In this document: positions 15,501 to 56,807 of the stretch, in pieces | Layout of the letters: every line of letters starts with the position of its first letter | Position numbering within the stretch: the stretch's first letter is position 1 | NCBI GenBank assembly: GCA_964036195.1 | Contig: OZ038455.1 | Location: 13,471,855-13,535,854, forward strand | Reading direction: 5' to 3' | Length of the DNA stretch: 64,000 bases | From: Sphaerolaimus hirsutus | Lineage: Eukaryota > Nematoda > Chromadorea > Monhysterida > Sphaerolaimidae | Position numbers and translations under genes: made by a program | The notes under the pieces: model-generated | Databases searched by the model: none | Told to the model about the DNA's origin: nothing | What the model saw: the letters and a program-made list of their open reading frames with translations, nothing else

Positions 15501-16175
15501 AATACTTTTTATTCATACTCATGCATAAATGTGAGTAAAATACTTTTTATCCATGGAAAATGTAAAAGCGAGTACTTTTCCCCTGGAAAACGTAAAAAGC
15601 TACTACATGAGAGAGTGTCAGTTTTACACTGGAAGGTATAATATATGTCGTTTTTAGTGATTATTTAGTATTTTTTAGAAAAATGATAGGATTTCTTCTA
15701 AATTTTGTTAGGTATTTTAGCAAGAGAAAATTGTGATTTTAACAACAAAAATACATTTTCTCTGTACGTGTGTACTTTTCAAATGTATGCTTAAAATGAG
15801 TACATCGCTTTTGTTTAAAGTATATGTAAATGAATTTACCGCGTACTCGCGTACCCGTAATTTTCGAGTAAACGTACGTATATTTTAACAACTGTGACCA
15901 TTACAGCAGAATCCCGGTCTGTTGCCTAGGATATGCGCAGAACTATTGAAAAAGCACCGAGACTCTGCAGATGAAACTGAACTTCATTTCAGGTAGCTTC
16001 TATTCTATCAACAACATCAACAATTCATGGATTTCACATTATTTTACATTTTTTCTGTTACCACTTTACAGTCTGTATGAAATTTACAATGACAAAGTCT
16101 ATGATCTTCTGTCAAACACGAAAGGAAAGAGATGTAGAGTGAGGCAACACCCCGTCGCCGGCCCGCACGTAGAAG
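12581..16175 (+). CDS. Kinesin exons 1-5: first half of motor domain with P-loop
   Basis: Exon 1 ends in the first motor strand (AVTVVVRIKP). Exon 2 (ENIWHDSSHVIV) has a weak acceptor ttttttcaag. Exon 3 holds YAFDHVFDES, RNTCIITYGQTGSGKTYSML (P-loop). Exon 4 carries NPGLLPRICAELL, and exon 5 LYEIYNDKVYDLL and VRQHPVAGPHVEG, typical of kinesin-3 (conserved EIYN.KV.DLL and HP..GP.VE). Exon 1 ends phase 2, exons 2 and 3 phase 0, exon 4 phase 2, exon 5 phase 1. These exons are single copy in the window. Intron 2 contains two repeat elements and intron 3 a MITE. Confidence 0.9.
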
Positions 16176-19100
16176 GTATTTACGATTATCGATTTACCTA
16201 TATGTTATTTAGTGTATTAGACACCCACGTCAAAACGAAAAACTGTCCAAATAATGACTGAGCTTGGCCTGTAAAATTGATATGGACCAGGATTTTTGTG
16301 ATCTGCTTCTTTACATTGACCCGCGTATGGGGGGGGGGGGGCAGGCTCAGCCCCCCCTCAAAATGGCCCGTGGCATTGGAAAGAGACATAGAGAAAACGA
16401 TGCCTCATTTTCTAAATAAATTCTCTATACATTTTTTGTTGACATCTTCCATTCCTGCAGGGTTGAGTCGAGTCGAGTTAAAATCAGACACAGACATGCA
16501 AAATTTGATAAAAGCCTGTCACCAAGCGAGGACAACCAGTTGCAGGGATAAGCAGCACCTGAGCAGCAGGTAATCAAATTTTCATTTATGGGATCTATTA
16601 TTTGCCAGGGGTCAAATTCTGAACGTAAGTCGCATGTAAGGCATCGTGTCGTCTGTCTGACACGCGAGTTATTTATCCGTTATCTTTAGTTGCGCTGGCA
16701 GCGTGCCAACTCGTACTTATCCGTGAGTGCGCTGTTATCGATCATATTCGTTGTTGTTAAATAATTTACATTTCACATTTCAATCGCTTTGCATTTGCGC
16801 TTTTAACAGCGAGGAAATTTTTGTCAATCTACAAGAGTTGCATGCATTTCAAACAATTGGCATACTGCCAATTGGAACCGCACATGCACAGTATCATGTC
16901 GCCATCGTATATACCTGCACACTTGCTTTCGTTCCACTTCCATTTGGGGCAATTTTTCGCTCATTTGACACCCAAAAATTTCAGGAGCCATGCAATTTTC
17001 ACCCTGTGGAGAACAGGCAGCACGGGTCAAACTACACTGTTCAACATGGTTGACCTGGCTGGAAGGTTATTGCAAATATTTTTTTTTTATTTTTTCTGCT
17101 TTTTGAGGTAAAACGTGAGTGAAAATCTCGCGAAACACGAATTACGTGAAGATTAATGGTGGGTACTCAGATATGTAAACGCTTGCAGCGGTTGAACACC
17201 AGGGGCCAGATTTAATTCTCCCTTCAGATTTGTAGGGTAGGGCGTACGCCCGATAGATTTTATTAAGTTCAGCCGCATCGACGCACATGCACCGAGAGCA
17301 AGGCGGTTTGTAAAATACATGAAATTACCCTTTAAGGTCGCCGATATTGCAATATGACGTATATCGCTTCGATTTTGGCCGGGAAATCACGATTTCGTCA
17401 TTTCTTGGCCGTCTGCCAATTCGTTTTTTATTTTATTTTGTCGGGCGGGTTACTCGCATAAGTCGCGCTTTTGTACGCTCGTGCATGCATTTCATTCTTG
17501 TCGCTGCGCTCATGGTTTCGGTTGCAGACAGTGAACACTAAAAAAGTGACCACCTGACTACACAAAAGCGCGACTTATGCGAGTAACCTGCCCGACAAAA
17601 TAAAATAAAAAACGAATTGGCCGACGGCCAAGAAATGACGAAAGCATGATTTCCGTGCCAAAATCGAAGAGTTATACGTCATATTGCAATATCGGCGACC
17701 TTAAGGGATGGTTTCGTATATTTTACGAACCGCCTTGCTAGCGGTGCATGTGCGTCGATGCGGCTAAACTTTAAAAAATCTGTCGGGCGTACGCCCTACC
17801 CTACAAATCTGTAGGGAGAATTAAATCTGGCCCCTGGTAGGAAATTTCTGGTAAAAATACCTTTTTAATGTGTTCTGATGATGTAAACTCGGGAATTTGT
17901 ACCATGGTATTTATCCCGATACCACTCTCCTTTGAAATTTGAAACACGATGAAGAGCTTTGTTCTACTTTCTCTGCGACAGTTTTCAGGCACTATTATTG
18001 TTATGATGTTTGTATTTCATGACACGTGTGAGCTGAAATATCAGCTTACCTAAACGTGGTGATCCACACCCTTTCCAACCTTCCCAACAAAATTTCAGTG
18101 AACGTGTCAACGTGTCAGCAAATCACCAACGAATAAAGGAAACCGCAAGCATCAACAAATCACTGGCAACTTTAGGCAATGTGATCCTGGCACTGAGTGA
18201 GTTCAGCTACTGTTTTTGTGTGTTCTTTTGTGGAATGTGAACATGTAGAAAAACGACTGAATGTAAAATTTATCAGAACATTTGAAGAAAACATTGTTTT
18301 TATAAATTAAATTATCACTGGTTAAAACCCACCGTTTAAGTCTCAGTTTAATCGCTTCGTTATTGTATTCAAGATTATAATGTACCTAGTAGGTATGCAG
18401 AAAATTTTGTTTTATTTTTCAGGCACCAAACAGAAACTCGGCCTAGATGATAGGGCAACACGATACATTCCATACAGGTAAATACAAAATAGGTAAAATA
18501 TATCACATTTTTGTGTCTGGGGAAAGGGGTTCTTCTCATTGTCGGGTGGTTTTCACCCGGTAGAGTATCCAAATGTGTTTTTTTCACCTGAACTGGGCTC
18601 GTTGTTGTTCGATCAGCATTGACCAGTAGCTTCAATATCCACAGCACATTACTATTTACAATTGAGGAATTGTAGTGAAATTTCGGCACAGCATTTCCTT
18701 CAATATAATGGACTTGGGTAGCTGATCCTCTGTACCTGACTAGAAAATATTACCATTTTGTTCTAAAATAAACAATCAAATCAACTAAAGCAGTATTGCA
18801 GTTTTAACCATCCATATCCCAGTTCAATATACCATTCTACTAACCTGTATTGCAGAAATTCCACACTTACATGGCTATTGAGGGACACTTTGGGTGGAAA
18901 TGCCAAAACCTTCATGATTGCAAGTTCGTTGAAAAATTTATTGGTAGTTGGTGATGTAAAGAGAGTCAAGAGTTGGCGCTGTGCACCAAGAACTAAAATA
19001 GTTTTTTTTTGCAAAATAATTTCCATTTTTACTGATGGGCCGATTACTGCCACCGCCAGATGCCCTTAGAGCCACTGAAAAATGGCGCCACATAATTTCA

Positions 19101-22100
19101 GTGCTTTTTGCTTCGGCACTTTTACTTCACTAATGTATTGTTTTTTTTCTCAACTGTTCATTGTTTTCCTTCAGTAATTGTATGCCTCCAAACAATTGTG
19201 CAGCCATATCGCCATCAAATGAGTGCTATGCAGAGACCGTAAAAACCCTCAGATATGCGCACAGAACCAGGAATATTTTCTCCATTCCAGACTACATTTT
19301 CGAGGTACCAAATTTTTGAGGTTTTGAGGTTTCTTTGATTTGTATGATCGAATTTATCGAATTCCATATGTGTTATTTTTCCAACCCTCTCAGCATAGTT
19401 TTACCATTTCATTATTTCTTAGTGTGCTATTTCAAACCATATGATATGTTGATGCTGGCGGTAGCGTCAAATTTCACAGCAGCATTCTGTTCCCGGGGGC
19501 CAGCCTTACACCCTGACAGATGTCATGTAAAATGTCAGACAAATTTACAAAATGTCATGTCATGCTTTATTATGTCCAGTAAAAAAAGAAAGTATTGGTC
19601 ATGCGTAATGTTGAAAATCTTTTCAAACGTTTGTTAGACACTTTACAAATAGGTAACCATAGTCTAGTAGTTGATTGAACTTACTACAAGTTTGTGTTCA
19701 ATCAATCAACTTTACTACAGTAGGGTGCAACACTAGCCGCTGTTACATTTTCATGTGTTATTTTTTTGGCTCTGTGCCAGCTTATTTTTTACAATCCTAT
19801 CTGCTGCTAGCAGCTGATGTTATTTCCATCTGTTTACCTTCAGATCCTTCATTAAAAGTAAATACACCCATTTCATATTAATAACGCATAACGAATAACA
19901 ACTGTAAACGATTTCAGAATTGCCATGGCAACAGAGCGCAAACATCGATTCAGACAGCAGGTGATTCGCTTCTGGTTAAGCTTCAGGAGAGAATAAAACA
20001 GCTGACCGAGAGGTTGGAAAATGTTAGCTTACATGCGTTTTTTAATCCTGTTTTGTGTCATCCTGCAGCTGCGTGCATACCGTGTTTCCTCGAAATACCC
20101 CCAGGGGGTTTATTATTTCGCCAGTAATTTTTTGTTTGGAGGGGGGGTTGAATTCTGGGGGAGGGGCTTATTCGAGGGGGTTCATTATTTTTCAGAGATT
20201 TTCGTGAAGGATCATAGTAAAGAATAAACTATTACATACACAAAACTGGTTATTGAAGTGCCCAATAAGGCGAAAAAGGAGAGAAAGTTACAAGGGGGAA
20301 AATTCAAGGAAATACGGTACTTTAAAAGCTCCACACGGGCCATGGCCCATGGATGCCTTCTTTCCCATTCACTTTGAGGAATGAGTCATGGGTTTTAAAA
20401 CTGTTTATTTGTCTGTCCAACCCTTGGTCTTTGGCTATGCTAGTAGATTGGTAGCTGTATAGATATATCAAAAATGCATGGAAACTTTGTCTACATTGTT
20501 ATCATAAGCACAATGTTTCGCTACTATTATATAGCATAGCAGCCCTTTTCCCGAAACTCAGTGTATAAAGCGTGAGGTGACAGCATTATTGGTATTTGAA
20601 GTGACTCAATATTACAACAATTGTTAGGTATCAAAATGATTTCAAACGAATCACAATACAGATCAATGTAAGATGTTATAAATATTTACATGTTCTTCAG
20701 CTATGTGTGTATCAATGTGGACTAGAAAATAGCGTGCATTCATGCGACAAACCCTGCCTCGGCTGCAATGAAAATAGGCGCATGTAATTTGTAAAAGACC
20801 ATGTATAGTTGACTGCCGGTTTTTCAACAATTATACCAAAAAACATATTACCACAAATCCTTGTAAAAGTCCTTTTGACTAGGGGTTATTCTTGGGGTAG
20901 ATTTATTTTTGCAGTCAATAGATTGTACAAATGGTTCAAATTAACAAATTATTCAATTGTTAAGTGTTTGTTAATGTTCATCGGTATTTCTCATCTCAAA
21001 CGGGGTATTATTCGAACGACAGTTGTTTTCATTGTGTGGGTTTCAAGGGGGTAGTTTTCCTCATGTCAGAAACTGGGGAGGGGGATTCAAGTGAGGGGAC
21101 TTAGAAAAGGATTGACCAGGACAGTTAATTGTTGTCATCAAAAAATTTATTAGAAACTTACTCCCTATCCTAACAGGTTACGAAATTTATGCGGTTTTAA
21201 CATGTAGCAATAGCAACAACAGCATGATGTATAGTAAGAACTGGTTGTTAAAAAGTTATCTTAATAATTGGAGTTGTTCAAAATGGACATTTTCTCCAAC
21301 CCTAGCGTATGCGCGCGCATTGCACTGCGACTGTGGGCAGCTATAAAAGAAAATTGGCTTTTTCTATTTTGGCACAGTTTGATAGTTCGGCATAAAGATA
21401 GAGAGAGACAAATTGAACACCGACTATGTTTTATTCCATCCAAACTTATTTATTCATCACATAAAAATCCCACTTTCACAGTGTCCCGAATTAAAGCCAC
21501 ACCAAAGAATTTACAGAGTAAAATGGGAACATGTCGATTGTATGAACAATATCCTACCTTTAAGCTACCTAAATAAATATCAAACAAGAAAGCGACCCCT
21601 AATTAATATCAATGATCTGCTTCATTTGCGCCATGCAGAAAGGTGGTGTTGTGAGCAAAAACTGCAGCGAGAACGACGTGTCGAATTTGGGCGCGTGCAA
21701 GAGGTGCCGCTGCAATGAACCGTTGAGCATCCGCGTGGGCGACAGGTTAAAGTTGGTTGAAAATGTGATTGTACTTTTTTGCTTTGGTCTGACATTTAGG
21801 CTAGAAACAATAGTTGTCCTTTTTGCAGCATTCAGCGGCACAGCCGCAGTTGCAACACTTCACCATCATTGGCGCACTCGCGAAAGTCTCCAGTCAGCGA
21901 ACAGCAAGCAAAATTTACAGCTTACGGTCAGTCCGATCTGAACGATATACACCGTATATCCTCGAATAACACCCCAGGGGAGTTATTTTTTCGTCAGAGT
22001 TTTTGAGAGGGGGAGTAATTCAAGGAGGAGGAGTTATTCAAGGGAAGTTATTTATATCCACCCGGCCAACAGGGGATGTTATTCAAGGGAGGGACTTATT

Positions 22101-25100
22101 TGAAGAGCATCTTATTCAAGGATATACGGTAATTATGTGCCGAACGTTTTAAAGAAATTGATAAATGGTGTGATTTGTCTTCTTAGCTTGGTGGAGGGAG
22201 CACAAATTTATGGTTAACGATGGCAAAGCGAAATTCGGAAATTTTTTCAGATTTTTGGATTTCTGGAGGACGTCAGTCAAGTATTTGTTTTTTCCTCTTG
22301 ATAAGTACCGTATGTCTTCGAATAAGTCCCCCCTCTCGAATATCTGCCCGCCTCGAATAACTCCCCCCTTGAAAAAATTCTGACGAAAAATAACTCACCC
22401 AGGGATAGCGTTGGGACGATATGACTTTTCGATATCGATATTTGATATGAAAAAATGGTCGATATTTGATATTGATATTTTGATATTTTCGATATTTTGC
22501 TTTTGGTATAGCAGGGCATATCTTATTTGGCATATTGTATTTCTATTTTGGTCACAAACCCAATTGATCATCTCTACAGAAAAGTGGGTGATACAAATTT
22601 AAATGGCTCACAATGATCAAAATGAGAAAATGGTTTTAAAATGTGACAGATCAGGGGCCAGTTCCGCAAAATGAGAAGTGAGAAGTGAAATGGCAAATGC
22701 GAAGTGAAATGAGAAGTGAGAAGTGAATTGAGAAGAAAATTGGCGAAAGCAAAGGGAAATCACTTTTTATTTTTTTATTTTTACTTCGCTTTTGCCAATT
22801 TACTTGACATTTCACTTTGCTTTTGCCAATTTTCTTCTCAATTCACTTCGCATTTGCCAGTTCACTTCTCATTTTGCGGATCGGAACTGGCACCTGGTAA
22901 GGAAAAGGTGCCAGCCCCATTTATAGGTGCCATGCCAAGGTGCCAATGATGTTCCCATGGTGTAAGTAACTATTAAACATACATATACTTTTATGTGAAC
23001 ATATGTGAGTGCATTTGCACAAGATTTGATGCTGTATCAAGTGCTGTAACAAAAATACCTGTCACGTGAGAACAAAGTGCGCGCTTGTGCGCAAAATTGA
23101 AAAAAATTGCTTATGGAATCGCCTTCTTATAGTGCCATTCCTGGCTTATTTGAAGTCAGGCCCAGGGAGGATAGAATATCGAAAATATCGAAAAAAATGG
23201 TCGATATTCAATATCGATATTCGATATTTTTTTTAAATTTTTGATATCGATATTCGATATGAAAAAATAGTCGATATCCGATATTCGATATTCGATACGA
23301 TATATTGTCCCAACCCTACCCGGGGACTTATTCAAGGATTTACGGAATTTCTTAGGAGTATGATACGCCATTCTTCAAGGTTTATTTTTTTCGAGTTGAT
23401 TGCAATGCATGTAAAAATGCCCCTCAAAATACGTTTTCTGTACTCTCATACTTTCTTTCAAAAAATACACTTTAAGATCAGTGCCGGTATTTTTAAACGT
23501 AAACGTATTTCCTCTGTACACGAGTATAAGTTTTTTCCGAGTAAAGGAACAACTATGGAATTTTCTATTTATTTAAAAATAGAGGACAAATGATGGTTAT
23601 AATGTAATAAACAATGAATTTTTCCTACAAATTCAAAAGGAGCAGTTATTATGTCAATAGATTGTGCAATTCAACTTGGGTGTGGCTTGGATACGTATTT
23701 TTCCAACAATGCGTGATAATCAACGATGGGTAAGTTCTCAAAATAAAAACACTTTCTGTATTTTTAGTTTTTCAAAAATGAATATCTGTGTTTTGAGTTT
23801 TTCACGAAAAAACTTGAGTCTCTGTGTTTTGTTTCTGTTTTTTTTTGTTGTAAAAACTCTAGTCTTTTCGGTAAAAACTCAAGTTTTTTGGGGTAAAAAG
23901 TCAAGTTTTTTTTAAACAAAAAGTTGTATTTGACAGCATTTTGATCCGGAAGCAGTGTTTTTCTTATAGTTTATATACGTTTTGCACAGATTTAGACCAC
24001 ACATCTGCATATTCATTCGTGTGTCGATAAACTTACTGTATATACTCGAATAATACCCCAGGGGAGACATTATTCTTATTAGTCATTATCAGGGGGTTCT
24101 TATTCAAGGATATACAGTATTCATGTTTTGATGCTTATTTCATTGTTTAGACTGGATACTTGGATATGTATTTATCAGAGTTGTAAAAATACTGGTATTT
24201 TTGGAAAGCGTAAGCATAAGCATAAATACACTTTCCAAATTTTGAGTATGGATCATAGGCGGCGTAAGTGCTTGTGCGCTTGTGAATGTCACAAGCGGAA
24301 TTTTCGGTGTTACAAGCAGAAATACCTAGTTTACCTAGTAAAAAGTGTCACAAGGTCAAATTTTGGCCAATGTGATTGTGAATGTCACAAGCACAAATTG
24401 GGACCTTGCGTAGCCTATGGTATGGATACTAAAAGCGTAAGGTATTTTTAAAATACCTAAGAATAGCAAAAAAGCGAAAAATGTAAAAAATATTTTAGAG
24501 CGTGCTCTTGCTGTTGAGCATTGGACAACACCCTTGCTTTTACTAGATGAATTTACTATGTAATCATTTTCATTCATTATTTCAGATTATTCTCATCAAA
24601 CACAATCATCACATAATAACACAACAAATATACATTGTTTAACACCAGGGGTCTGGTAGGGTGATAGGGGGTTGCCCCCCAAAATTCTCCAGCTATCTAT
24701 CTATCCCAGAGGTTGGTCTGCTATCGATCCTCAGGTATCTTGGTCATCTTCCAACTCAGACTTTGTGCTGTCGATGGCGACAACATCGTCGTCGAAATCT
24801 ATCATCCGACCCAAAATTCTCAATCCGATGTCTAGATAATACTCGAAGACACTATTTTTTACCACACACTCATATTTTGACACAATTTCTACTTCTATCG
24901 CTATTTCCAGTGAATTCTTGCACACGCGCAGTAATTTTTTTACACGTTCTCATTCAATTTTTTTGTAGTTTTACGCTTTTTCAAAACTGAAACTGAACCG
25001 TGCGAAATTCTTTTTTTTAACTTTTATTTAGTACCCGTATAATTTGGCTGGGAAAGCGTAAAAAAAGTCTACAGGTAATTTATGAGCGTAAGCGTAAATA

Positions 25101-28100: not shown

Positions 28101-31100
28101 CAACTGGGACACTTGGAGCACAGCCTGTTGCAGCTGGTCGCGCTGCACGACCAGCCGAACAAAGGTTCGCTTAGATACTGTATTTCTTTGAATACAAAAA
28201 CGCCGTTGTATTTCTTTCATCAACTATTTACCTGGCGTTTTACTTGTATGCCGTTCTATTGAAGTCTGCCACTCTATTTTTTGGTGCAAAAATGTCAAAA
28301 CCTGTCGTTCTATTGGAAGTATACCGTTCGATTACAAGAAATACGGGCAACCACATTGTTTCCTTTGCGCGTGTTCACTCCTCCTGAACGTAACAGATTC
28401 CAAAAACGTATTGTCTGTGCGAAAGATCTTCATTGTATACCAAAATGATGTAAGGTAACTTTTGCAGAGACTGATGAAAACGACGGATTTCCGTTAAGTA
28501 CCACCAACCCATCAAACATAGCTGACGAGCAAGCGAGAAAAAAGAAAAAGCCATCTAGTCCACAAACCGGCTGTCTCGACAAAGGTTTGATTAATGCTTT
28601 CTACAAATTTCCTGAAAGATGCAGCCACACTCAACGATGGTCAAAACACAGAAATTGAACACAGAAACTCATTGAGTTTCTGTGTTTTTGTTTTACACAG
28701 AAACACGGAAACTCACAAATTTTGAAAAACTCAAAACTCAAATGAGTTTTTTTTTGGAGAACACAGAAACACAGAAACACGGAAACACAGTAAAGTTTTT
28801 TGAGTTTTTGAGTTTTTTTCAGCGAAGTGGTCGAACACATTTTCAGAATGCACATGAATTCAGTTAAACTAAACAAGATAAGATATGTATGTATAGCATG
28901 TAAATATGTACATAATGTATTCATATTTTATGATGGAACAAAAAGTAAATTGAAGATGGCATGCACATCTCCTGGTGGACATGTTTAAATATAATTGTAG
29001 TTCAAATCAATTCTGTAGTCTTCCATACAGTGCACATCCATTGAAGAATTTTGGAGTACTGCGTAAATTGTTGTTTGTGAGCATTTTGTTGATGCTGGTG
29101 TTGCGATGTGGGTGGATGTCCTCATTGAGGACATTTTTATGGACTTTTTCAACACTTGAATGAATACACATATGTTATGTGGGGTTAAAACATGTGCAAA
29201 ACCAATATTTTATAAGAAAACCACTGTTTCCACATCAAAATGCTGTAAATCAGAATTTTTTGGGGAAAAAATTGATTTTTCAACAAAAACTCAAGTTTTT
29301 TAGAAAAAAAACTCAAAAAACTCGAGTTTTAACAAAAAACACAGAAATAAAAACAGAGTTATTCAAGTTTTTTTTTCGATAAAAAAACTCAAAACACAGG
29401 TATTCATTTTTGAAAAACTCAAAACACAGAAAGTGTTTTTTTTTTGAGAACTTACCCATCGTTGGCCTAGGGTTCAAACGATATGACTTTTCGATATCGA
29501 TATTCGATATTCGATATTTTTTCAAAATTTTCGATATCGATATTCGATATTTTTTCCTGAAACTCGATATTCGATATCGATACAATATGGAACCTCGATA
29601 TCGATATTCGATATTCGATATTGAAAAACGGTCGATATTCAATATTCGATATTTCGATATTTTCGATATTGGGATATGCTTTTGGTATAGCAAGGCATAT
29701 TTCAAGTGGCATATTGTATTTTCATGTGGTTGCACACATGTTTAATCATCTCTTTACTGAAATTTGAATGGTGCAAGTGATTTTAACAAGCTTTACATCA
29801 CTCAATGGACGAAAATAGAAGAAAAACATGATGAATCAAAGTGTATCAGACAAATAACAATTGGTAGATATTACAGTTCATCCTAACCTAATTGCTTAAG
29901 GGCATGTTGCAAAAAAAGTATATCAGCATTTTCTGGCTTCAAATTTAGTACTCCAACAACAATGACATTATAAATACTGTACATTTACTCATCAAATACA
30001 ATACTATTTATAAGCACATCAGATCAACCATAAACATCTCAAAATGAAAATGAAAAGTAAATTTGGGGACACAATACAGGTTCGATACATCGCAAAAATG
30101 GTCGATATTCGATATCGATATTCGATATTTTTTCAAAATTTTAGATATCGATATTCGATATTTTTTCAAAATTTTCGATATCGATATTCGATATTCGATA
30201 TTAAAAAATGGTCGATATCCGATATTCGATATATCGTTTGAACCCTACGTTGGCCACACTTGTTCCACATTCATTAGGCCCTTATTTTTTCTGGATACTG
30301 TATCTTAGAAATTGAAGTTGCATGACACTGCGATAAGCATTTTTAATTAACGGGTCGCATGCTCTGCACAGAATGTTGCCATGTTTTGATAAATCAGGTC
30401 ATGCGATAAATTGTGTGTTAAATCATATCACAGTGAAAACGATGGATTATTTATGACGAAAATGTATATTTAAAATAATTTTCTCCATTATTCAGATGGT
30501 ATATTATATTTATAATGTTTTTCAGTGCAAAATATGCATGAACTCCGTTGACTACACTGATAACCATGCAGTTCATCAAGTTATCCCATGTTCTTTCCAA
30601 ATAAATCACTGAAAAATTGCTATAAAAAACAACAAATTTAATCACACAATCGCAGATGATCTGATAATTGAGAACAGCATGGCAGCCGACATGACAAACA
30701 TACCTGAACTTGGTGATGACTCCATAGACAGACAGGAACAACAATATCTGCTGCTTGCATCAGCGAAGATCGCTGCAGACAGAAGTGTGGCCAGCTGTTC
30801 CAGCCATTTAGCCAGCGCTGAAGGTTTTTCTTTTACTCCCTTTTAGCGTGCCAAAAATGGGTATTTTTCAGAAGATAAATATAATGAACAATAATCTCAG
30901 AACATCTCTCAAAAAAATAAATTACAGTTAAATATCTTTGAAAAATGCTGAAAAAGTATAAATAAATATAAAAGATATATCTGAGGATATAAAAGATATA
31001 AATAAAATATAAAAAAACATGATTAAATCTCTTTCGAAGAACCAGAAGAAACTATATTTATTTATATATTTTTCAAAAACAAAATCTCCTGAGATCTTTG

Positions 31101-34100: not shown

Positions 34101-37100
34101 GCTCGTGCATGCATTTCAGTCTTGTCGCTGCGCTCATGGTTTCGGTTGCAGACAGTGAACACTAAAAAAGTGACCACCTGACTACACAAAAGCGTGACTT
34201 ATGCGAGTAACCTGCCCGACAAAATAAAAATAAAACGAATTGGCCGACGGCCAAGAAATGACGAAAGCATGATTTCCGTGCCAAAATCGAAGAGTTATAC
34301 GTCATATTGCAATATCGGCGACCTTAAGGGATGGTTTTGTATATTTTACGAACCGCCTTGCTAGCGGTGCATGTGCGTCGATGCGGCTAAACTTTAAAAA
34401 ATCTGTCGGGCGTACGCCCTACCCTACAAATCTGTAGGGAGAATTAAATCTGGCCCCTGGTAGGAAATTTCTGGTAAAAATACCTTTTTAATGTGTTCTG
34501 ATGATGTAAACTCGGGAATTTGTACCATGGTATTCATCCCGATACCACTCTCCTTTGAAATTTGAAACACGATGAAGAGCTTTGTTCTACTTTCTCTGCA
34601 ACAATTTTCAGGCACTATCAGGGCCGTATCCAGGGGGGGGGGCGGGGGGGGCTGCAGCCCCCCCCCCCTCCCGGGGTGAGACCTAAAAAGTCCTGGAAAA
34701 TACAATTTCTCCTATACATTTTTCGATGTTTCTTAAAAATTTTGCGCGCAGGCGCGCAATTTCTTCCCCATACATTGTATTTTTAGCGGATCGGTACCTG
34801 TAAACAAATATCCTTAAAAATGAACACATTTTTGCGACTTTCGCAGCATATGAATGCATATTTACATCTATATAAAGCGGTTCCTGGCACTAGCGCCAAC
34901 GCCAATAGCGCCATGGCGTGGCGCCTTGGTATGGCGCTAGCGCCAAAACGCTTTTCCGTCCCTATATAGGGAAACAATTTAGGGGGGGGCTGAGCCCCCC
35001 CCCCGCTCGCCGGCCCCCGTAAACAAGCAGCCCCCCCCCCCGCTCAAAAATCCTGGATACGTCCCTGGGCACTATTATTGTTATGATGTTTGTATTTCAT
35101 GACACGTGTGAGCTGAAATATCAGCTTACCTAAACGTGGTGATCCACACCCTTTCCAACCTTCCCAACAAAATTTCAGTGAACGTGTCAACGTGTCAGCA
35201 AATCACCAACGAATAAAGGAAACCGCAAGCATCAACAAATCACTGGCAACTTTAGGCAATGTGATCCTGGCACTGAGTGAGTTCAGCTACTGTTTTTGTG
35301 TGTTCTTTTGTGGAATGTGAACATGTAGAAAACGACTGAATGTAAAATTTATTAGACCTTGCGTATCAGAACATTTGAAGACAACATTGTCTTTATAAAT
35401 TAAATTATCACTGGTTAAAACCCACCGTTTAAGTCTCAGTTTAATCGCTTCGTTATTGTATTCAAGATTATAATGTACCTAGTAGGTATGCAGAAAATTT
35501 TGTTTTATTTTTCAGGCACCAAACAGAAACTCGGCCTAGATGATAGGGCAACACGATACATTCCATACAGGTAAATACAAAATAGGTAAAATATATCACA
35601 TTTTTGTGTCTGGGGAAAGGGGTTCTTCTCATTGTCGGGTGGTTTTCACCCGGTAGAGTATCCAAATGTGTTTTTTTCACCTGAACTGGGCTCGTTGTTG
35701 TTCGATCAGCATTGACCAGTAGCTTCAATATCCACAGCACATTACTATTTACAATTGAGGAATTGTAGTGAAATTTCGGCACAGCATTTCCTTCAAAATA
35801 GTGGACTTGGGTAGCTGATCCTCTGTACCTGACTAGAAAATATTACCATTTTGTTCTAAAATAAACAATCATTCAACTAAAGCAGTATTGCAGTTTTAAC
35901 CATCCATATCCCAGTTCAATATACCATTCTACTAACCCGTATTGCAGAAATTCCACACTTACATGGCTATTGAGGGACACTTTGGGTGGAAATGCCAAAA
36001 CCTTCATGATTGCAAGTTCGTTGAAAAATTTATTGGTAGTTGGTGATGTAAAGAGAGTCAAGAGTTGGCGCTGTGCACCAAGAACCAAAATAGTTTTTTT
36101 TGCAAAATAATTTCCATTTCTACTGATGGGCCGATTACTGCCACCGCCAGATGCCCTTAGAGCCACTGAAAAATGGCGCCACATAATTTCAGTGCTTTTT
36201 GCTTCGGCACTTTTACATCACTAATGTATTGTTTTTTTTCTCAACTGTTCATTGTTTTCCTTCAGTAATTGTATGCCTCCAAACAATTGTGCAGCCATAT
36301 CGCCATCAAATGAGTGCTATGCAGAGACTGTAAAAACCCTCAGATATGCGCACAGAACCAGGAATATTTTCTCCATTCCAGACTCCATTTTCGAGGTACC
36401 AAATTTTTGAGGTTTTGAGGTTTCTTTGATTTGTATGGTCGAATTTATCGAATTCCATATGTGTTCTTTTCCCAACCCTCTCAGCATAGTTTTACCATTT
36501 CATTATTTCTTAGTGTGCTATTTCAAACCATATGATAAATATGTTTATGCTGGCGGTAGCGTCAAATTTCACAGCAGCATTCTGTTCCCGGGGCCCAGCC
36601 TTACAATCTGACAAATGTCATGTAAAATGTCAGACAAATTTACAAAATGTCATGCGTAATGTTGAAAATCTTTTGAAACGTTTGTTAGAGACTTTACATA
36701 TAGGTAACCACCATAGTCTAGTAGTTGATTGAACTTACGACAAGTTTGTGTTCAATCAACTATACTACAATAGGGTAGGGTTCAAACGATATGACTTTTC
36801 GATATCGATATTCGATATTTTTTCAAAATTTTCGATATCGATATTCGATATTAAAAATGGTCGATATCCGATATTCGATACGATATATCGTTTGAACCCT
36901 ACAATAGGGTGCAACACTAGCCGCTGTTATATTTTCATGTGTTATGTTTTTGGCTCTCTGCCAGCTTATTTTTTACAATCCTATCTGCTGCTAGCAGCTG
37001 ATGTTATTTCCATCTGTTTACCTTCAGGTCCTTCATTAAAAGTAAATACACCCATTTCATATTAATAACGCATAACGAATAACAACTGTAAACGATTTCA

Positions 37101-40100
37101 GAATTGCCATGGCAACAGAGCGCAAACATCGATTCAGACAGCAGGTGATTCGCTTCTGGTTAAGCTTCAGGAGAGAATAAAACAGCTGACCGAGAGGTTG
37201 GAAAATGTTAGCTTACATGCGTTTTTTAACCCTGTTTTGTGTTATCCTGCAGCTGCGTGCATACCGTGTTTCCTCGAAATACCCCCAGGGGGTTTATTAT
37301 TTCGCCAGTAATTTTTTGTTTGGAGGGGGGGGGGGTTGAATTCTGGGGGAGGGGCTTATTCGAGGGGGGTCATTATTTTTCAGAGATTTTCGTGAAGGAT
37401 CATAGTAAAGAATAAACTATTACATACACAAAACTGGTTATTGAAGTGCCCAATAAGGCGAAAAAGGAGAAAAAGTTACAAGGGGGAAATTCAAGGAAAT
37501 ACGGTACTTTAAAAGCTCCACACGGGCCATGGCCCATGGATGCTTTCTTTCCCATTCACTTTGAGGAATGAGTCATGGGTTTTAAAACTGTTTATTTGTC
37601 TGTCCAACCCTTGGTCTTGGGCTATGCTAGTAGATTGGTAGCCGTATAGATATATCAAAAATGCATGGAAACTTTGTCTACATTGTTATCATAAGCACAA
37701 TGTTTCGCTACTATTATATAGCGTAGCAGCCCTTTTCCCGAAACTCAGTGTATAAAGCGTGAGGTGACAGCATTATTGGTATTTGAAGTGACTCAATATT
37801 ACCACAAGTGTTAGGTATCAAAAGGATTTCAAACGAATCACAATACAGATCAATGTAAGATGTTATAAATATTTACATGTTCTTCAGCTATGTGTGTATC
37901 AATGTGGACTAGAAAATAGCGTGCATTCATGCGACAAACCCTGCCTCGGCTGCAATGAAAATAGGCGCATGTAATTTGTAAAAGACCATGTATAGTTGAC
38001 TGCCGGTTTTTCAACAATTATACCAAAAAACATATTACCACAAATCCTTGTAAAAGTCCTTTTGACTAGGGGTTATTCTAGGCGAGAGTTATTCTTGGGG
38101 TAGATTTATTTTTACAGTCAATAGATTGTACAAATGGTTCAAATCAACAAATTATTCAAGTGTTAAATGTTTGTAAATGTTCATCGGTATTTCTCATCTC
38201 AAACGGGGTATTATTCGAAAGACAGTTGTTTTCCTTGTGTGGGTTTCAAGGGGGTAGTTTTCCTCTAGTCAGAAACTGGGGAGGGGGGATTCAAGTGAGG
38301 GGACTTAGAAAAGGATTGACAAGGACAGTTAATTGTTGTCTTCAAAAAATATATTAGAAACTTACTCCCTATCTTAACAGGTTACGAAATTTATGCGGTT
38401 TTAACATGTAGCAATAGCAACAACAGCATGATGTATAGTAAGAACTGGTTGTTAAAAAGTTATCTTAATAATTGGAGTTGTTCAAAAGGACATTTTCTCC
38501 ATCCCTAGCGTATGCGCGCGCATTGCACTGCGACTGTGGGCAGCTATAAAAGAAAATTGGCTTTTTCTATTTTGGCACAGTTTGATAGTTCGGCATAAAG
38601 ATAGAGAGAGACAAATTGAACACCGACTATGTTTTATTCCATCCAAACTTATTTATTCATCACATAAAAATCCCACTTTCACAGTGTCCCGAATTAAAGC
38701 CACACCAAAGAATTTACAGAGTAAAATGGGAACATGTCGATTGTATGAACAATATCCTACCTTTAAGCTACCTAAATAAATATCAAACAAGAAAGCGACC
38801 CCTAATTAATATCAATGATCTGCTTCATTTGCGCCATGCAGAAAGGTGGTGGTGTGAGCAAAAACTGCAGCGAGAACGACGTGTCGAATTTGGGCGCGTG
38901 CAAGAAGTGCCGCTGCAATGAACCGTTGAGCATCCGCGTGGGCGACAGGTTAAAGTTGGTTGAAAATGTTATTGTACTTTTTTGCTTTGGTCTGACATTT
39001 AGGCTAGAAACAATAGTTGTCCTTTTTGCAGCATTCAGCGGCACAGCCGCAGTTGCAACACTTCACCATCATTGGCGCACTCGCGAAAGTCTCCAGTCAG
39101 CGAACAGCAAGCAAAATTTACAGCTTACGGTCAGTCCGATCTGAACGATATACACCGTATATCCTCGAATAACACCCCAGGGGAGTTATTTTTTCGTCAG
39201 AGTTTTTGAGAGGGGGAGTAATTCAAGGAGGAGGAGTTATTCAAGGGAAGTTATTTCCCCCCACCCGGCCAACAGGGGATGTTATTCAAGGGAGGGACTT
39301 AGTTGAAGAGCGTCTTATTCAAGGATATACGGTAATTATGTGCCGAACGTTTTAAAGAGATTGATAGGTGTGATTTGTCTTCTTAGCTTGGTGGAGGGAG
39401 CACAAATTTATGGTTAACGATGGCAAAGCGAAATTCGGAAATGTTTTCAGATTTTTGGATTTCTGGAGGACGTCAGTCCAGTATTTGTTTTTTCCTCTTG
39501 ATAAGTACCGTATGTCGTCGAATAAGTCCCCCTCTAGAATATCTCCCCGCCTCGAATAACTCCCCCCTTGAAAAAATTCTGACAAAAAATCACTCACCCG
39601 GGACTTATTCAAGGATTTACGGTATTTCTTAGGAGTATGATATGCCATTCTTCAAGGTTTATTTATTTTCGAGTTAAGGGCAATGCATGTAAGAATGCCC
39701 CTCAAAATACGTTTTCTGTACTCTCATACTTTCTAAAATACACTTAAAGATCAGTGCCGGTATTTTTTTTAACGTAAACGTATTTCCTCTGTACGCGAGT
39801 TTAAGTTTTTTTTCGAGTAAGGGAAGAACTATGGAATTTTCTATTTATTTAAAAATAGAGGACAAATGTAGATGGTTATGATGTAATAAACATAGAATTT
39901 TTCCTACAAATTCAAAAGGAGCAGTTTATACCGTATTACCTCGAATTATCCCCCCCCCTTGAATTAACCCCCCCCCTCGAAATACCCCCCCTTCGTAATG
40001 ATGTACGTCATGTACATAATAAATACGTCATGTACGCAATGTACATGATGTATATTACTGTTAATTTGCATTGCAGCTACACATAGAGTAGTTTGTGTAG

Positions 40101-43100
40101 CTATCTACGTTTTTATGTCCAAATATATCCTGTTTGGACACATTTTTTACCTATTTTGGGTACGCAAATGCCTACTATTTACTACGATCCTTACAAAAAT
40201 TTCTGACGAAATAATAAAACCCCACCCTCAAATTAACCCCACCCTCAAATAATAAACCCCCATGGGGGTATTTCGAGGTAATACGGTATGTCAATAGATT
40301 GTGCAATTCAACTTGGGTGTGGCTTGGATACGTATTTTTTTCAACAATGCGTTATAATCAACGATGGGTAAGTTCTCAAAATAAAAACACTTTCTGTATT
40401 TTGAGTTTTTCAAAAATGAATATCTGTGTTTTGAGTTTTTCACGAAAAAACTTGAGTCTCTGTGTTTTGTTTCTGTTTTTTTAATTTTAAACTCTAGTCT
40501 TTTTGGTAAAAAACTCAAGTTTTTTGGGGTAAAAAGTCAAGTTTTTTTTTAACAAAAAGTTGTATTTGACAGCATTTTGATCCAGAAGCAGTGTTTTTCT
40601 TATAGTTTACCGTATTTCCTCGAAATACCCCCCGGGGTTTATTGTTTCAGAGTGAGAACTTTGAGAGAAAAACGTGAAAAATGCAACAATAACCACCATG
40701 TTTAAGTTTTTACAGCCTTATATAAGGATGTAGATGGTATAAACGATGTTGTAACGTAACACAGTAAGTGTTTTGAACGTCTGTCATGCATTTCCCGGAC
40801 CACAAATCCATAGTGCCCATTTTGAGGGGGGGGGGGTATTTCGAGGAAATACGGTGTATACGTTTTGCACAGATTTAGACCACACATCCGCATATTCATT
40901 CATGTGTCGATACACCTACTGTATATACCTAGGTAAATACACTTTCCAAATTTTGAGTATGGATACTAAACGCGTGAGGTATTTTTAAAATACCTAGGAA
41001 AGCAAAAAAAGCGAAAAATGTAAAAATATTTAAGAGCGTGCTCTTGCTGTTGAGCATTGGACAACACCCTTGTTTTCACTAGATGAATTTACTATGTAAT
41101 CATTTCCATTCATTATTTCAGATTATTCTCATCAAACACAATCAACACATAATAACACAACAAATATACATTGTTCGACACCAGGGGTCTGGTATGGGGA
41201 TAGGGGGTTGCCCCCCAAAATGGACCAGCTATCTATCTATCCCACGGGTTGGTCTGCTATCGATCTTCAGGTATCTTGGTCATCTTCCAACTCAGACTTT
41301 GTGCTGTCGATGGCGAAAACATCGAAATCTATCATCCGACCCAAAATTCTCAATCCGATGTCAAGATTATACTCGAAGACACTATTTTTTACCACACACT
41401 CATATTTTGACACAATTTCTACTTTTATCGCTATTTTCAGTGAATTCTTGCACACGCGCAGTTATTTTTTTACACGTTCTCATTCAATTTTTTTGTAGTT
41501 TTACGCTTTTTCAAAACTGAAACTGAACCGTGCGAAATTCTTTTTATACTTTTATTTAGTACCCGTATAATTTGGCTGGGAAAGCGTAAAAAAAGTGTAC
41601 AGGTATTTTATGAATATAAAATATAAATACCCATTTACCCGGGTATTTCGGGTAAGTGTAAATACACCTTCGCAACTCTGATATTTACATACTAGATACC
41701 TTATGCATGCACATACTCACATTCAGGGTTGGCAAAATCTCAGAAAAAAATAAAAATAAAATAAAATGGAAAATTGGAGAATAAAATAAAATCAAATCAA
41801 ATAAAGTGGAAAATTAATAAAATAAAAATACAAATTTACTAAAATTCGAATTTTAGTAAAATTTTAGTAAAATTGTACAAAAATTCGAATTTTTGTACAA
41901 TTTTAGTAATATTTTACAAAAACTCAAGTGTCTAAAATTCTATAAAAAGTTTTCTATCCTGTTGCTGACGATTCTAGCTGCCAATTTGCAGAACTGGTGC
42001 CTTGTTGTTGCTTTCATTGTCAAAATTTCTTTGCTCAAAATCACAAACTTTCACATTTTTTAGATATTGTCACCTTAAAAATGACTAATTCATGTGATTT
42101 TTTCGTATTTACTTCGTTCCATAACTTGAAAAAGCCTATATATCAACCCCGCAAGCCCCTCCATCCCACCCAAATAACAAATTTATAGCTATCTTCCCTT
42201 GGGAAGAGAAACTAGCTGCAGATCTATCCGGCCCCTGTGAGGGTCAAAATTCAAGATACCTACATCGCAACCAATGTCACAAGTCTACATAAAATTTTTT
42301 TTGGTGTTCAGCTGTACGCTTTTAGCGTGCACATTGTTTTATGCCCTTGCATCCAAGATTTCCGATTTTATTGTAAAATTTTAGTAAAATTATTGTAAAA
42401 TTTTTGTAAAATGGTTTCATTTTATTATATTAATGACATTTCAGAATAAAATAAAATAAAATAAACTGAAACATGAATAAAATTAAAATAAAATACAATT
42501 TTAATAAAAATAAAATACAATTTTAGTAAAAAGAATTTTACTAAAACCAACCATGCTCACATTGTTCAGTTCAAATCATGTTCCTGAAAAAAAACTAAAA
42601 AAACATTTCTGCATTTTCTGTGTTTCCGTGTTTCCGTGTTCTCCAAAAAAAAACTCACTTGAATTTCTGGGTTTCCAAGATGTTGAGTTTGCGTGTTTCC
42701 GTGTTAAACAAAAACATGGAAGCTCTAGAGTTTCCATATTTTATATGTGTGTTTTTGCCATCGTTGGTTATAACATTAGCTCAACGCGAATGGAACACAC
42801 GAAACAAATATTTAACATTGAATCCAATCAACTACTACACTTATAAAGTGGGAGCTGCAGCTTCCCCGAAAATTAAAGTTGCAACGACAAATAAAAAAGT
42901 GACCGAAAAACTTTTTGTTTTCATATTTTCGAGTATGTTATCCAAGATTTATGTTCAAAACTCAACTTTAAAAAAAATGCATCATATTTTTATTTTTTAT
43001 ATTAGATTTTGAATGAAAAACATTCGATGGAAAATTGTCAGACGTAAAATAAATTTTGCGTCTACGCATTTGTCATTGATCATTGCAAGCATTTTCTGTG

Positions 43101-46100
43101 ACTTTTTATTTGTCGTTTCAACTTTTATTTTTCGGCAATTTGTAAGTCCCTTTTAAAACAACAACCAAAAGATATCACGCAGACACAAACATCAAACCAA
43201 CTGCTCTCCAAATCGATCAAATCAACAATTCAACGTGTTGCAACAGTTCAACATCGGCATCGACGTGCTCGTGCTCATCGTGCGTCGGCGGCAGGGGAAC
43301 TGAGCACTTGGAACACAAATTGAAAGTGTTACAGTGCGTTACCGAATTGCAGAGAAGGAGAGAAGAGTGTGAGTGCTTTGTTCTCGCTTTCAAATATATT
43401 TTTCTGAACACACGGTTGAACTACCGTATTTGCTCGAATTACCCCGCTCCTAAAATAATAAAATATTTCGTTTAGTGGCGTTTATAACCAGTTATGACAA
43501 CGTAATGACCTATTCTCTACTACTATCCTGGCGTAATGATAACCCCCGCCCCCGAATAAGCCCCCTCAAAATACCCATTTCTGAAAAAAACCCTGGGGGT
43601 ATTTCGGGGAAATATGGTATGTTTGTAAATTTCCAAACTGTCTGGGTTCAGATACAGGATTTAAGGTAGAAAATTTGTTTTGGTCTGGTCACTTCCAGTC
43701 AGGTCCAGCGTCAAGTCAAGTCGAGTTAAAGAAACAATAACTTCATCTGGGATAGCTACTACGCCTCCACACAGTGACCTGACCTGAGAAAGCCTGGCAT
43801 GCGAAAATCGATATGTTCTCATGCTGTACTCAGTGCATTTGCGTAGCCCATTCCGTGTATCCATTGGCGGAGGTGTACCCATTGTCTGTTGGAGCCAAAT
43901 CCAAATTTTACGGCATTTTGTCTGTGTCCTGAACCTGTCACCGTGTTTTCTGACGGTACAGAATTTGGAAACTTCATTGAGTATCATCCCTAGAGTAGAA
44001 TAACAAATTATACAGTTCTACACTGTGCACTTATCAAATCTGATCGAATGATACATATTAGTAAAGCTTAATGATGGAAGATCCAACCGAACACCATCCA
44101 GAATAAGGTTAACCCTAGCGAGCATTTCGCGGCGCCGCAGGCTTTTCTCCAGCGCATTGTAATTTGCATTCGCGCTTGCCACGTGTCCCAAGTGTGCCGC
44201 GGGGCCACATGAGGGCGCGCCCTGGCTTCACGTGCCCGCGGCTCATGTATCACGCGCCAGCCGCCGGTGCCAGATTCTATTTGAATGTAGGGCGCAGCGC
44301 ACGTAAGCCTAAGGTGCCCGACGTGCGAAGGTCGCTGAAACTGTGCACCAGAGTTGTTAAAATAACTGAATTTTGCAAAGATTATGTATATCTAAATTAC
44401 TTTTTTACTCACCCCTGAGTACAGAAAATGTAAAATACTTTTTTTACCAGTACTCATGTGAGTAAAATATTTTTTCTCCAAGAAAATGTAAAATCGGGTA
44501 CTTTTTCCCTAGAAAATGTGAAAGCAAGTAGTTTTCTTCATAGAATATGCAAAAGTCGGTTTTTCATGGAAAATGTAAAAGCGCACACAATTTCATCTCA
44601 CGCGCACAATGTCAATGGCTTACACACATGTAGGGCCCGAGCGCCTTATGTGCGCCTTACGTTCAAATTGAATTCGACCCCTGGTCTGGTGCGTGGTTTG
44701 TATTCCTGCGCGTGTACTGAATGTTAGCTGCTTAAGCCCGGCTGCAGACTGAGGCTATGCCGCTGTAGCATGCACATGCACCGCGTACGTACTGCCCTGC
44801 TCCTCTACATTATCTATGCATGCAATTTAGCACAATGTTAAATGCGTGACTGTGTGATATATGGCGGTATAAGTATCCCACAGGAAATTGCACATTGTCT
44901 TTCTTTGAAACTAATATTGCATTGGATCATTTCTACATGACTTTATTGAGCATTAATAAATATGACTGAAGTATTAATGAGCTAGTGCGCCCAACCTGTC
45001 AACATGCCTGTATGAATCATACTGATGGATTTAAAAATATAAACAGATTGCTATTTTATCTGAGGTGTGTGCAACAAGAATCGTTTGAACCGCCTCAAAT
45101 TCAGCATATTATTTTCTGGTTGTCAGTGCTATTTCTTGTAATTTTGACAACTATTTTACTTGGTTTGTTTGATGGAAATTGTGTTTTTTGTTTTCTACTC
45201 GGGTACTATTCATAACACATGTACTTCAACTTGTATTTGTGTAGTGACTGCAACAGATCAGTATCCAACCATTGAGTAACTCGACATCATGCCACTACTA
45301 CACACACACAGGCATGGAATGTAAGTTTCCCGGTGCAGAACCCCCTGAGTATTGGCCACTTTAAATAACGCAAAGCCAGCAAAAGCCATTTTTAGAAATA
45401 AAATTTTGAGTTTCTCGGATTTTGTATGTAGATTCCAAATCCACAGTAAAAAAAATCAGTTTAAAATTTTGCACATGTCGGTTTGGTTAACACCCAAATC
45501 AAGTCTCAAGTTCACAGGCACAAGTTTCTACCCCCCCCCCCCCCCGCCCAGGCACGCACATCTTATCCGAACTGCAAGAGCCGCCCAAGTCAAACACAAA
45601 CGGCTCAACCAGAGAGAACAGTGCAGCGAGCGCGCTGGACATAAGCCGACTGCAGTCGCAACTGGGACACTTGGAGCACAGCCTGTTGCAGCTGGTCGCG
45701 CTGCACGACCAGCCGAACAAAGGTTCGCTTGGATACTGTATTTCTTTGAATACAAAAACGCCGTTGTATTTCTTTCATCAACTTTTTACCTGGCGTTTTA
45801 CTTGTATGCCGTTCTATTGAAGTCTGCCACTCTATTTTTTGGTGCAAAAATGTCAAAACCTGTCGTTCTATTGGAAGTATACCGTTCGATTACAAGAAAT
45901 ACGGGCAACCACATTGTTGCCTTTGCGCGTGTTCACTCCTCCTGAACGTAAAAAATTCCAAAAACGTATTGTCTGAGCGAAAGATCTTCATTGTATACCA
46001 AAATGATGTAAGGTAACTTTTGCAGAGACTGATGAAAACGACGGATTTCCGTTAAGTACCACCAACCCATCAAACATAGCTGACGAGCAAGCGAGAAAAA

Positions 46101-49100
46101 AGAAAAAGCCATCTAGTCCACAAACCGGCTGTCTCGACAAAGGTTTGATTAATGCTTTCTACAAATTTCCTGAAAGATGCAGCCACACTTGTTCCACATT
46201 CATTAGGCCCTTATTTTTTCTGGATACTGTATCCTAGAAATTGAAGTTGCATGACACTGCGATAAGCATTTTTAATTAACGGGTCGCATGCTCTGCACAG
46301 AATGTTGCCATGTTTTGATAAATCAGGTCATGCGATAAATTGTGTGTTAAATCATCTCACAGTGAAAACGATGGATTATTTATGACGAAAATGTATATTT
46401 AAAATAATTTTCTCCATTATTCAGATGGTATATTATATTTATAATGTTTTTCAGTGCAAAATATGCATGAACTCCGTTGACTACACTGATAACCATGCAG
46501 TTCATAAAGTTATCCCATGTTCTTTCTAAATAAATCACTGAAAAATTGCTATCAAAAACACGACACATTTTATCACACAATCGCAGATGATCTGATAATT
46601 GAGAACAGCATGGCAGCCGACATGACAAACATACCTGAACTTGGTGATGACTCCATAGACAGACAGGAACAACAATATCTGCTGCTCGCATCAGCGAAGA
46701 TCGCTGCAGACAGAAGTGTGGCCAGCTGTTCCAGCCATTTAGCCAGCGCTGAAGGTTTTTATTTTATACCCTTTTAGCGTGCCAAAAATGGGTATTTTTC
46801 AGAAGATAAATATAATGAACAATAATCTCAGAACATCTCTCAAAAAAATAAATTACAGTTAAATATCTTAGAAAAATGCTGAAAAAGTATAAATAAATAT
46901 AAAAGATATAAATGAGGATATAAAAGATATAAATAAAATATTTAAAAAAAATTAAATCTCTCTCTCGAAGAACCAGAAGAAACTATATTTATTTATATAT
47001 TTTTCATATACAAAATCTCCTGAGATCTTTGGAACGCTATTCTTGTCTCCTATTTATTTATAGACGATGGCAAACAAATTCATAAGTTTACATGGATTAC
47101 AGATGAAGCCAACTCTAGCGACACGTCGGAATGGTCGGAGGGGAAAAGCGCTGCTTATAATCAAATCGCGGTTGAATCAATGAACAAAAGCTGTGCGCTA
47201 CAGGATGACAAGGTATGTTTTCAATTCAATTATTTGGCTAGGCATGTGTGGGTGGGATTGACAAACGCAAGGCTGTCCTTTTCAAATCTATTCACTGACA
47301 AGACAATCAGTGAACGTGGATCTGGTTTTTTTTAATTATAATTTTTAATACTGATACCGTAGTTCTTCTAATAGAAGAGCACTGTTCTATCGTTTCGTCA
47401 ACGTTTTACCTTTCTACGTTTTACCGTTCCCGTTCTATTGGAGGTGCCGTTCTATTGTAGTTATGCCGTTCTATTAGAAAAAAATACGGTATGCATTTGA
47501 TAAAAAACCGTACGATAAAAAACGGGTGACTAAAGAGATGTTACTTTCAAAGGTGTACACTTGCGAGTGTCATTTCAATGTTATAACGTAATGGCGGCCT
47601 GCACACTACTTGACAAGTTGCGTACTGCGTTTAGCTGGGTATTTTTACCAAACATGAGAATTTGATGCTAGCGTCAAAGCAAAAACTGACATGGTGCTCG
47701 CGTTAGACTACCATGTTTGCTTTATACCTAGCGCCAATTTCTTTGGCGACTTTGGCGCCATTTTCTGAATTTTCACTATGTAACTGAACGCGGTACGCTA
47801 ATCAGCAACTAGGTAGTGTGTTGGCCGCCAATAGGACAAAAACATACACTAATTGCTATTGCATTTTTCTCAAGGTCGCAAGCTTCTTCACGCTAGATGC
47901 AAGAATGCTGTCACCAAAAAACGTCGACCAAATCAAACCAGAAATGGACAAAATGAATAGAACATTCGATCCCAGAATGATTCAGTCTTGTAGTGAAATC
48001 CAACATGAACGAACTGAAACAGCTGACGCACAGGGCAGTGAAGGATTTCAGGGCAAAAGGCAGAATCCTTTGAGGCAGTCCTTACCCGAGGCCGCCATTC
48101 GGTTGGTTCACAAATACTCAGACATGATCTAATCCTTGCGTGGATTCGGGACTTTGACAGGGACAGCTCATTGAGTCATGTGTCTCGCCAGAAATGCCTA
48201 CTGTATTTATTTGTGTAAACCGCCCAGGTGTTATACAAAACCGAGGCAATTTTCAGCAACCTTTTTTCAACTTTTAAACCTTTTAACTTTTTTTAAACCT
48301 GGTATAACGCACGGATGTTAATTCATTTGGAGGGGGCATAATGCACAGCAAATTATCGCTTGAATATTTACATATCTTGTGTTCCCTCCCAGCGTATTTG
48401 ATGTTACGAAATATGATATTTTTTCAATGCATTAGCCACACAATCGATAAATCGCTCAGAAAACGCCGTCTACGCCTTGATATCGACTCATTTGTGGGCA
48501 GAGTTTATCCGAAATCTTTGTCAGGATCTGAGAGGCCAAAGTTCGCATTTTTGAGGAGGCATGAAGGAGCGCAATCTTTCAGCGGAGCGGACCGCACCGA
48601 CATAAAGTGCGTTTGGGACACGATTTCACAAAAAAAACATTATAGCATATAAAAAAGCTTTTTAAAGATTTAAAAAATATTATAGCTTTAAAAAATTTAA
48701 ATTATACCATTTAAAAAATGTCTTTCGCAAAATTCCAGCACCCAGTCCGTCAACAGCACAACTACCAAACCAATAATTCATTTCGATGCACTCACATCTA
48801 CCAGCCAAAATACGACAGCCCGATCCAGTCTGAAATCATGTCACGGCCAGATAGATACACATTCGAGGCTGCCAACTAGCGCTGGGAAAAATGTAGATAG
48901 TGGTGGAAATGGGCCTGGAGAAAATGAAGGTGATGTGAAGATGGGAATGGATCAGGTGGATACTGCTGTCAATAGACGGTGAGCTTTGCAAATTATGTTT
49001 AATTTTGTGTGATAAGAATATTCAGAGGTATACTCGAGGGACTGCAAAGTACAGGGGTGGGCATCTTCAGTTACCGCTGGGAAAATGCGATAGATTGAGC

Positions 49101-56393: not shown

Positions 56394-56718
56394 CATCGAA
56401 TGATTTTAATGTTGTTGTTTTTTAGAAATTCTAATTGTGTGCTGTTGCGCATCTGCTAGTTCACGGTTGGTGCCATATTTCTTCACATTTTGTGTATTAC
56501 TATAGTTATTTTTTTGACATTTTACTGATCTTATGCTTCTTTCTAGTCAAATATTTCGCATGGCTCAAGCTCCATTGAATCTCATTGATACAAAAATACT
56601 CATTCATTTTATTTTCTATGCATTGTATCCAAATAATTTCAAGTTGTGTACATAGCTAAGCTACATACCACCCATACATAGCTCAGTGAGTAAAGTATTT
56701 GCCCTCAGCAAAACAAAA

Positions 56719-56807
56719 TTTTCTCGAAATACCCCCGGGGGGTGATTGTTTCATAGTGGTCCCGAGAGGGGGGGGTCAAACGAGGGGGGTATTTCGAGGA
56801 AATACGG
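56719..56807. mobile_element. Short, left-truncated TA-type MITE
   Basis: tctcgaaatacccccgggg ... gtatttcgaggaaatacgg|TA downstream of the kinesin stop. Confidence 0.65.

Follow-up and report, generated by a model that had tools for sequence, protein, structure and literature searches.

Organization of two kinesin gene copies around a scaffold gap

In the Sphaerolaimus hirsutus assembly (348 Mb, 762 contigs), exons 6 to 19 of a kinesin gene occur twice in direct order on one scaffold. This raises the question of whether part of the gene was duplicated in the animal or whether both alleles of a single locus were placed side by side by the assembly. We analyzed a window of 64 kb around this locus (C7:13471855-13535854; positions without a scaffold name refer to the window). 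A scan of the entire window for N runs revealed only one, a scaffold gap of exactly 200 N at 32124-32323 (no strand). BLAST aligned the sequence at the end of the left contig (16344-31871, block A) to the sequence at the start of the right contig (32944-47778, block B) in the same orientation and order, in nine pieces with 91-97% identity, gaps counted. In a piecewise alignment, the blocks differed by 305 substitutions in 12,429 aligned bases (2.45%) and by 52 short gaps. Both lie on the forward strand and contain the stretch from approximately exon 6 to exon 19; their collinearity suggests that A represents one allele and B the other. Scanning the window for Rfam families and for tRNAs gave no hits.

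Large insertions with an empty counterpart in the other copy, six in B and two in A, were detected by BLAST and sequence inspection. Specific to A are 22404-23319, with an ambiguous target site, and 28632-30252, the latter with the 8-bp target-site duplication GCCACACT, and both sites are empty in B. Four insertions specific to B and with empty sites in A were likewise supported by BLAST and sequence: 34619-35067 (8-bp target-site duplication GGCACTAT and inverted ends CAGGG...), 36777-36898 (inverted ends), 39927-40286 (inserted at TA) and 41724-42551. Two more B-only insertions at TA have ends resembling those of the element at 31872 described below: 43424-43617, found in the sequence, with a TA target-site duplication and an empty site in A, and approximately 40610-40857, recognized by eye and with an approximate right limit. 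No strand was assigned to these eight insertions, and their target-site duplications were read by eye from the sequence, for some insertions only. Judged by their ends, the eight are putative transposons. In addition, a stretch of approximately 177 bases near 24046-24222 is present only in A.

These differences bear on the possibility that one allele was assembled twice through read errors at contig ends (homotype false duplication). Such duplications are known at contig ends, as described in the part of PMC8081667 used here, and a pair on C3 at 25.59 Mb, 100% identical over 2,894 bases (see below), would fit this explanation. In the window, however, the substitutions (2.45%) accumulate outside the inferred exons, and complete insertions stand opposite empty sites. 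Since such differences are not read errors, we consider the chance that one allele was assembled twice here to be negligible.

Coding sequence and reading frame in the two copies

The exon numbering follows the sequence-only reading, and its set of 14 exons was modeled in part. To the left of the blocks, a Pfam search detected sequence coding for part of the kinesin motor at 14433-14756 of the forward strand (Pfam Kinesin positions 23-125); this span probably contains an intron, because it includes two in-frame stop codons. Positions 235-271 of the same Pfam domain occurred once per block, in a motor exon core at 18100-18198 (A) and 35180-35278 (B), both on the forward strand. The start of the block would thus fall midway through the motor domain. 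To the right of the blocks, a Pfam search in three frames of 47781-57682 found no domain. The solved structures nearest to the kinesin belonged to mixed subfamilies, and the matches were modest.

By reading splice junctions on the forward strand, we located exon 6 (109 bases) at 16461-16569 in A and 33077-33185 in B, and exon 19 (149 bases) at 31133-31281 in A and 47064-47212 in B. For both exons, lengths and splice junctions are equal in the two copies. The order and frame of 11 inferred exon cores (1,134 bases) are also common to A and B. The cores differ at 3 of 1,134 bases (two synonymous differences and one nonsynonymous), while 300 differences were counted in the 11,261 bases of the remaining aligned sequence (Fisher P = 1.8e-9); the cores were selected by visual inspection of open frames, with the differences between A and B already visible, which makes the set incomplete and the test not blind. 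The totals are slightly below those of the piecewise alignment, because bases in overlapping pieces were counted once. As far as the sequence allows us to judge, both copies look constrained.

The sequence-only reading had described a 200-N run separating two collinear copies, differences consisting of complete insertions with empty counterparts, and matching exon order, length and phase with near-identical coding sequence. The single N run and the BLAST collinearity confirmed the first description, and the eight large insertions, found in both copies, the second. The third held for the 11 cores and for exons 6 and 19.

Next to the blocks, exon 5 (16072-16175) on the left and the start of exon 20 (47875-47992, 3' end not fixed) on the right, both on the forward strand, can be joined in frame to exon 6 and exon 19, respectively, of either copy. 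If exon 19 of A is spliced to exon 6 of B, the junction is out of phase and a stop is reached at the second codon. This frame-breaking junction, together with the near-identical coding cores, fits two alleles of a working gene and not a duplication that breaks the frame.

A recent true tandem duplication of exons 6 to 19, with a junction that was not assembled owing to repeats at the break, would account for copies that are direct, collinear and adjacent. Moreover, the repeats at the gap could interrupt the assembly and also leave a gap between the copies. Such a duplication would have to cope with the out-of-phase junction and its immediate stop, and yet the coding cores are nearly identical; there is neither a readable in-series gene nor, with 3 differences in 1,134 coding bases, a sign of relaxed constraint. 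Taken with the edge and gap data below, we find it very unlikely. An intragenic duplication could also be real if it provided two mutually exclusive 14-exon kinesin cassettes, each spliced to exon 5 and exon 20 only and both maintained by selection. In that case, exclusivity would be imposed by the out-of-phase junction. We regard such an arrangement as extremely improbable.

Repeats at the contig ends and at the edges of homology

The left contig stops inside a high-copy element, of which the first 252 bases are present at 31872-32123 on the forward strand (terminus CCGTATT..., target TA; genome matches and sequence). The site of this element is empty in B at 47778. Among the best 40 scored genome matches, all 39 other than the element itself (91-95% identity) start at window positions 31853-31870. 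The right contig starts inside an interspersed repeat at 32324-32943 (forward strand), which contains a 107-bp tandem array according to a tandem-repeat scan and has numerous matches across the genome. At the left edge of block B, 20 of the 39 strongest other matches end at 32941-32945, within two bases of the edge; 16 stop at 32930, 13 bases short of it, and 3 reach 32957, 14 bases past it. In some cases, two of these matches represent opposite ends of a single element. A weak match on the reverse strand, with 74% identity, extends 23 bases past the edge, to 32966.

Because homology stops at repeat ends on both sides, its limits resemble the edges of insertions rather than duplication breakpoints, which speaks against a true tandem duplication. 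A contiguous junction from copy A to copy B is absent from the window; its only possible place is the N gap, where both contigs end in repeats.

Copy number of the block and its flanks

When a 2.5-kb piece of block A (19800-22300) was searched against the assembly, the two copies in the window were its two full matches, and no third copy was found among the best 40 scored matches. Each flank had one full match, and no second copy of either flank was found in the assembly among the best 40 scored matches per search. The 40 candidates scored in each search were mostly repeats, so a diverged or partial extra copy could escape. The expectation that every count from this scaffold is doubled was therefore correct for counts within the block and incorrect outside it, given the single full match of each flank.

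Two further repeats were observed in the flanks. An element of approximately 560 bases with inverted ends of approximately 189 bases lies at 49049-49608. Among the best 40 scored matches there were 39 other copies, 98-100% identical and located on many scaffolds, which suggests a very recent amplification. At approximately 15000-15462, there is a repeat of approximately 460 bases, for which 37 of the 39 other matches among the best 40 scored were 93-96% identical.

Similar tandem pairs elsewhere in the assembly

By searches for myosin heads and kinases, we located other same-strand pairs on one scaffold. Upon reading, four contained similar direct copies: C16 1.74-1.77 Mb (pieces 85-97% identical), C3 15.28-15.35 Mb (86-99%), C3 25.59-25.60 Mb (100%) and C9 27.69/27.72 Mb. 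A 200-N run (no strand) was present between the copies in all three pairs with a readable interval (C16:1759082-1759281, C3:15300125-15300324 and C3:25598407-25598606); these intervals were chosen for lying between similar copies, so the count describes them and not the density of gaps across the genome, and it leaves out the C9 27.69/27.72 Mb pair and further same-scaffold pairs such as a myosin pair near C16 9.83/9.84 Mb and a kinase pair near C3 25.05/25.18 Mb. No 200-N run was found in 36 loci outside those three stretches (approximately 185 kb, partly within the window, with one 10-N run), a subset of the 47 loci read (292,669 bases). A gap of 200 N may be the default of the scaffolding program YaHS, a point that carries no weight in our argument. 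The recurrence of a 200-N run between copies is a further point against a true tandem duplication in the window.

At two of these gaps, the right contig end was compared with the other copy. At C3 25.59 Mb, homology starts with the first base after the gap and continues unbroken over 2,894 identical bases. This complete identity indicates a contig-end overlap, without evidence of allelic divergence. At C16, 35 bases of homology start with the first base after the gap, followed by an insertion of approximately 920 bases and then by homology again. The C3 15.28 Mb pair is a weaker case, because all homology observed there lies at a distance from the gap.

An unplaced contig, C524 (10 of 16.5 kb read, L028), was also compared with the assembly. 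It matched C9:18408-18414 kb in four collinear pieces of 90-96% identity, with 3.47% substitutions over 3,516 aligned bases, and is probably a retained allele. By the same method, the copies in the window differ by 2.32%, those at C16 by 4.2% and those at C3 15.28 Mb by 1.75%. The window value fits this range, but each of the pairs compared is allelic by presumption only.

Several other regions drew attention during these searches. At C9:27693001-27720000 (L046, L047), similar pieces of 92-97% identity lie on the same strand 25 kb apart, perhaps as another unmerged overlap. The C9 23.99/24.03 Mb pair from the myosin search was rejected as a duplicate: two pieces of 10 kb were read, and their matches were limited to approximately 80% identity over approximately 207 bases. 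Near C3 25.598 Mb, the left contig end at the 200-N gap (L045, 5796-6906) is palindrome-like over approximately 1.1 kb, with 91% identity to its own reverse complement, and is perhaps a fold-back read artifact. Finally, a kinesin gene and its surroundings are found on both C3:20.52-20.54 Mb and C13:15.10-15.12 Mb (L043, L038, L042, L039, L044). The five longest collinear pieces of this pair (approximately 16 kb) are 97.7-99.6% identical; either an allele was misplaced here or the region is truly duplicated.

Relation to known false duplications and proposed origin

Duplicates of divergent haplotypes with gaps between them are termed false heterotype duplications by the Vertebrate Genomes Project, according to the parts of PMC8081667 and PMC9516828 used here. 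The window is very probably one more case of this known phenomenon; the observation of the sequence-only reading is confirmed, and its allelic interpretation points to an ordinary assembly error. As in the cases presented there, the primary assembly retains divergent copies, here presumed haplotypes, which follow each other on a single scaffold, are separated by a gap (here 200 N) and interrupt a gene. We see no difference in kind; in the window, the assignment is drawn from sequence comparison. The divergence of 2.45%, which refers to one locus, compares with 1.6% as the highest genome-wide heterozygosity in the species set of PMC8081667, as far as the part used here reports it.

In the consulted part of the purge_dups paper (PMC7203741), heterozygous overlaps are described as persisting between primary contigs of highly heterozygous species, insects and marine animals are given as examples of outbred species with this problem, and long-range scaffolders are said, to the knowledge of its authors, to leave such overlaps unhandled. 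The contig ends in the window overlap as two alleles would, again without a difference in kind from the retained overlaps described in that part.

We conclude that blocks A and B are very probably two alleles of one locus placed in tandem by the assembly and not a real duplication. This judgment is based on the anatomy of the edges, the break in phase between the copies, the small number of coding differences and the recurrence of similar pairs elsewhere. The proposal of unmerged alleles in the sequence-only reading thus gained support from the repeat-end edges, the junction, the constraint, the lack of a third copy among the best 40 scored matches, the one full match of each flank and the recurring 200-N runs.

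From the sequence, we infer the following assembly history, along with the allelic state of the blocks. The animal would be a heterozygous diploid with A and B as its two alleles. The left contig would carry one allele as far as the element at 31872, present on that allele only, while the right contig would start in a repeat specific to the other allele and then carry the second allele. Divergence and interruption by insertions may have kept the overlap from being merged or purged, and the scaffolder would have set the two contig ends one after the other, separated by a fixed gap of 200 N. In the true gene, exons 6 to 19 would be present once.

Within approximately 16.3-47.8 kb of the window, any gene model, exon count or statement on copy number derived from this scaffold would consequently be wrong, and further 200-N gaps in the assembly probably conceal the same error. 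Provided that the blocks are alleles, their comparison directly shows how far two alleles have diverged, with substitutions at approximately 2.5% of positions and a minimum of eight large insertion differences over approximately 15 kb.
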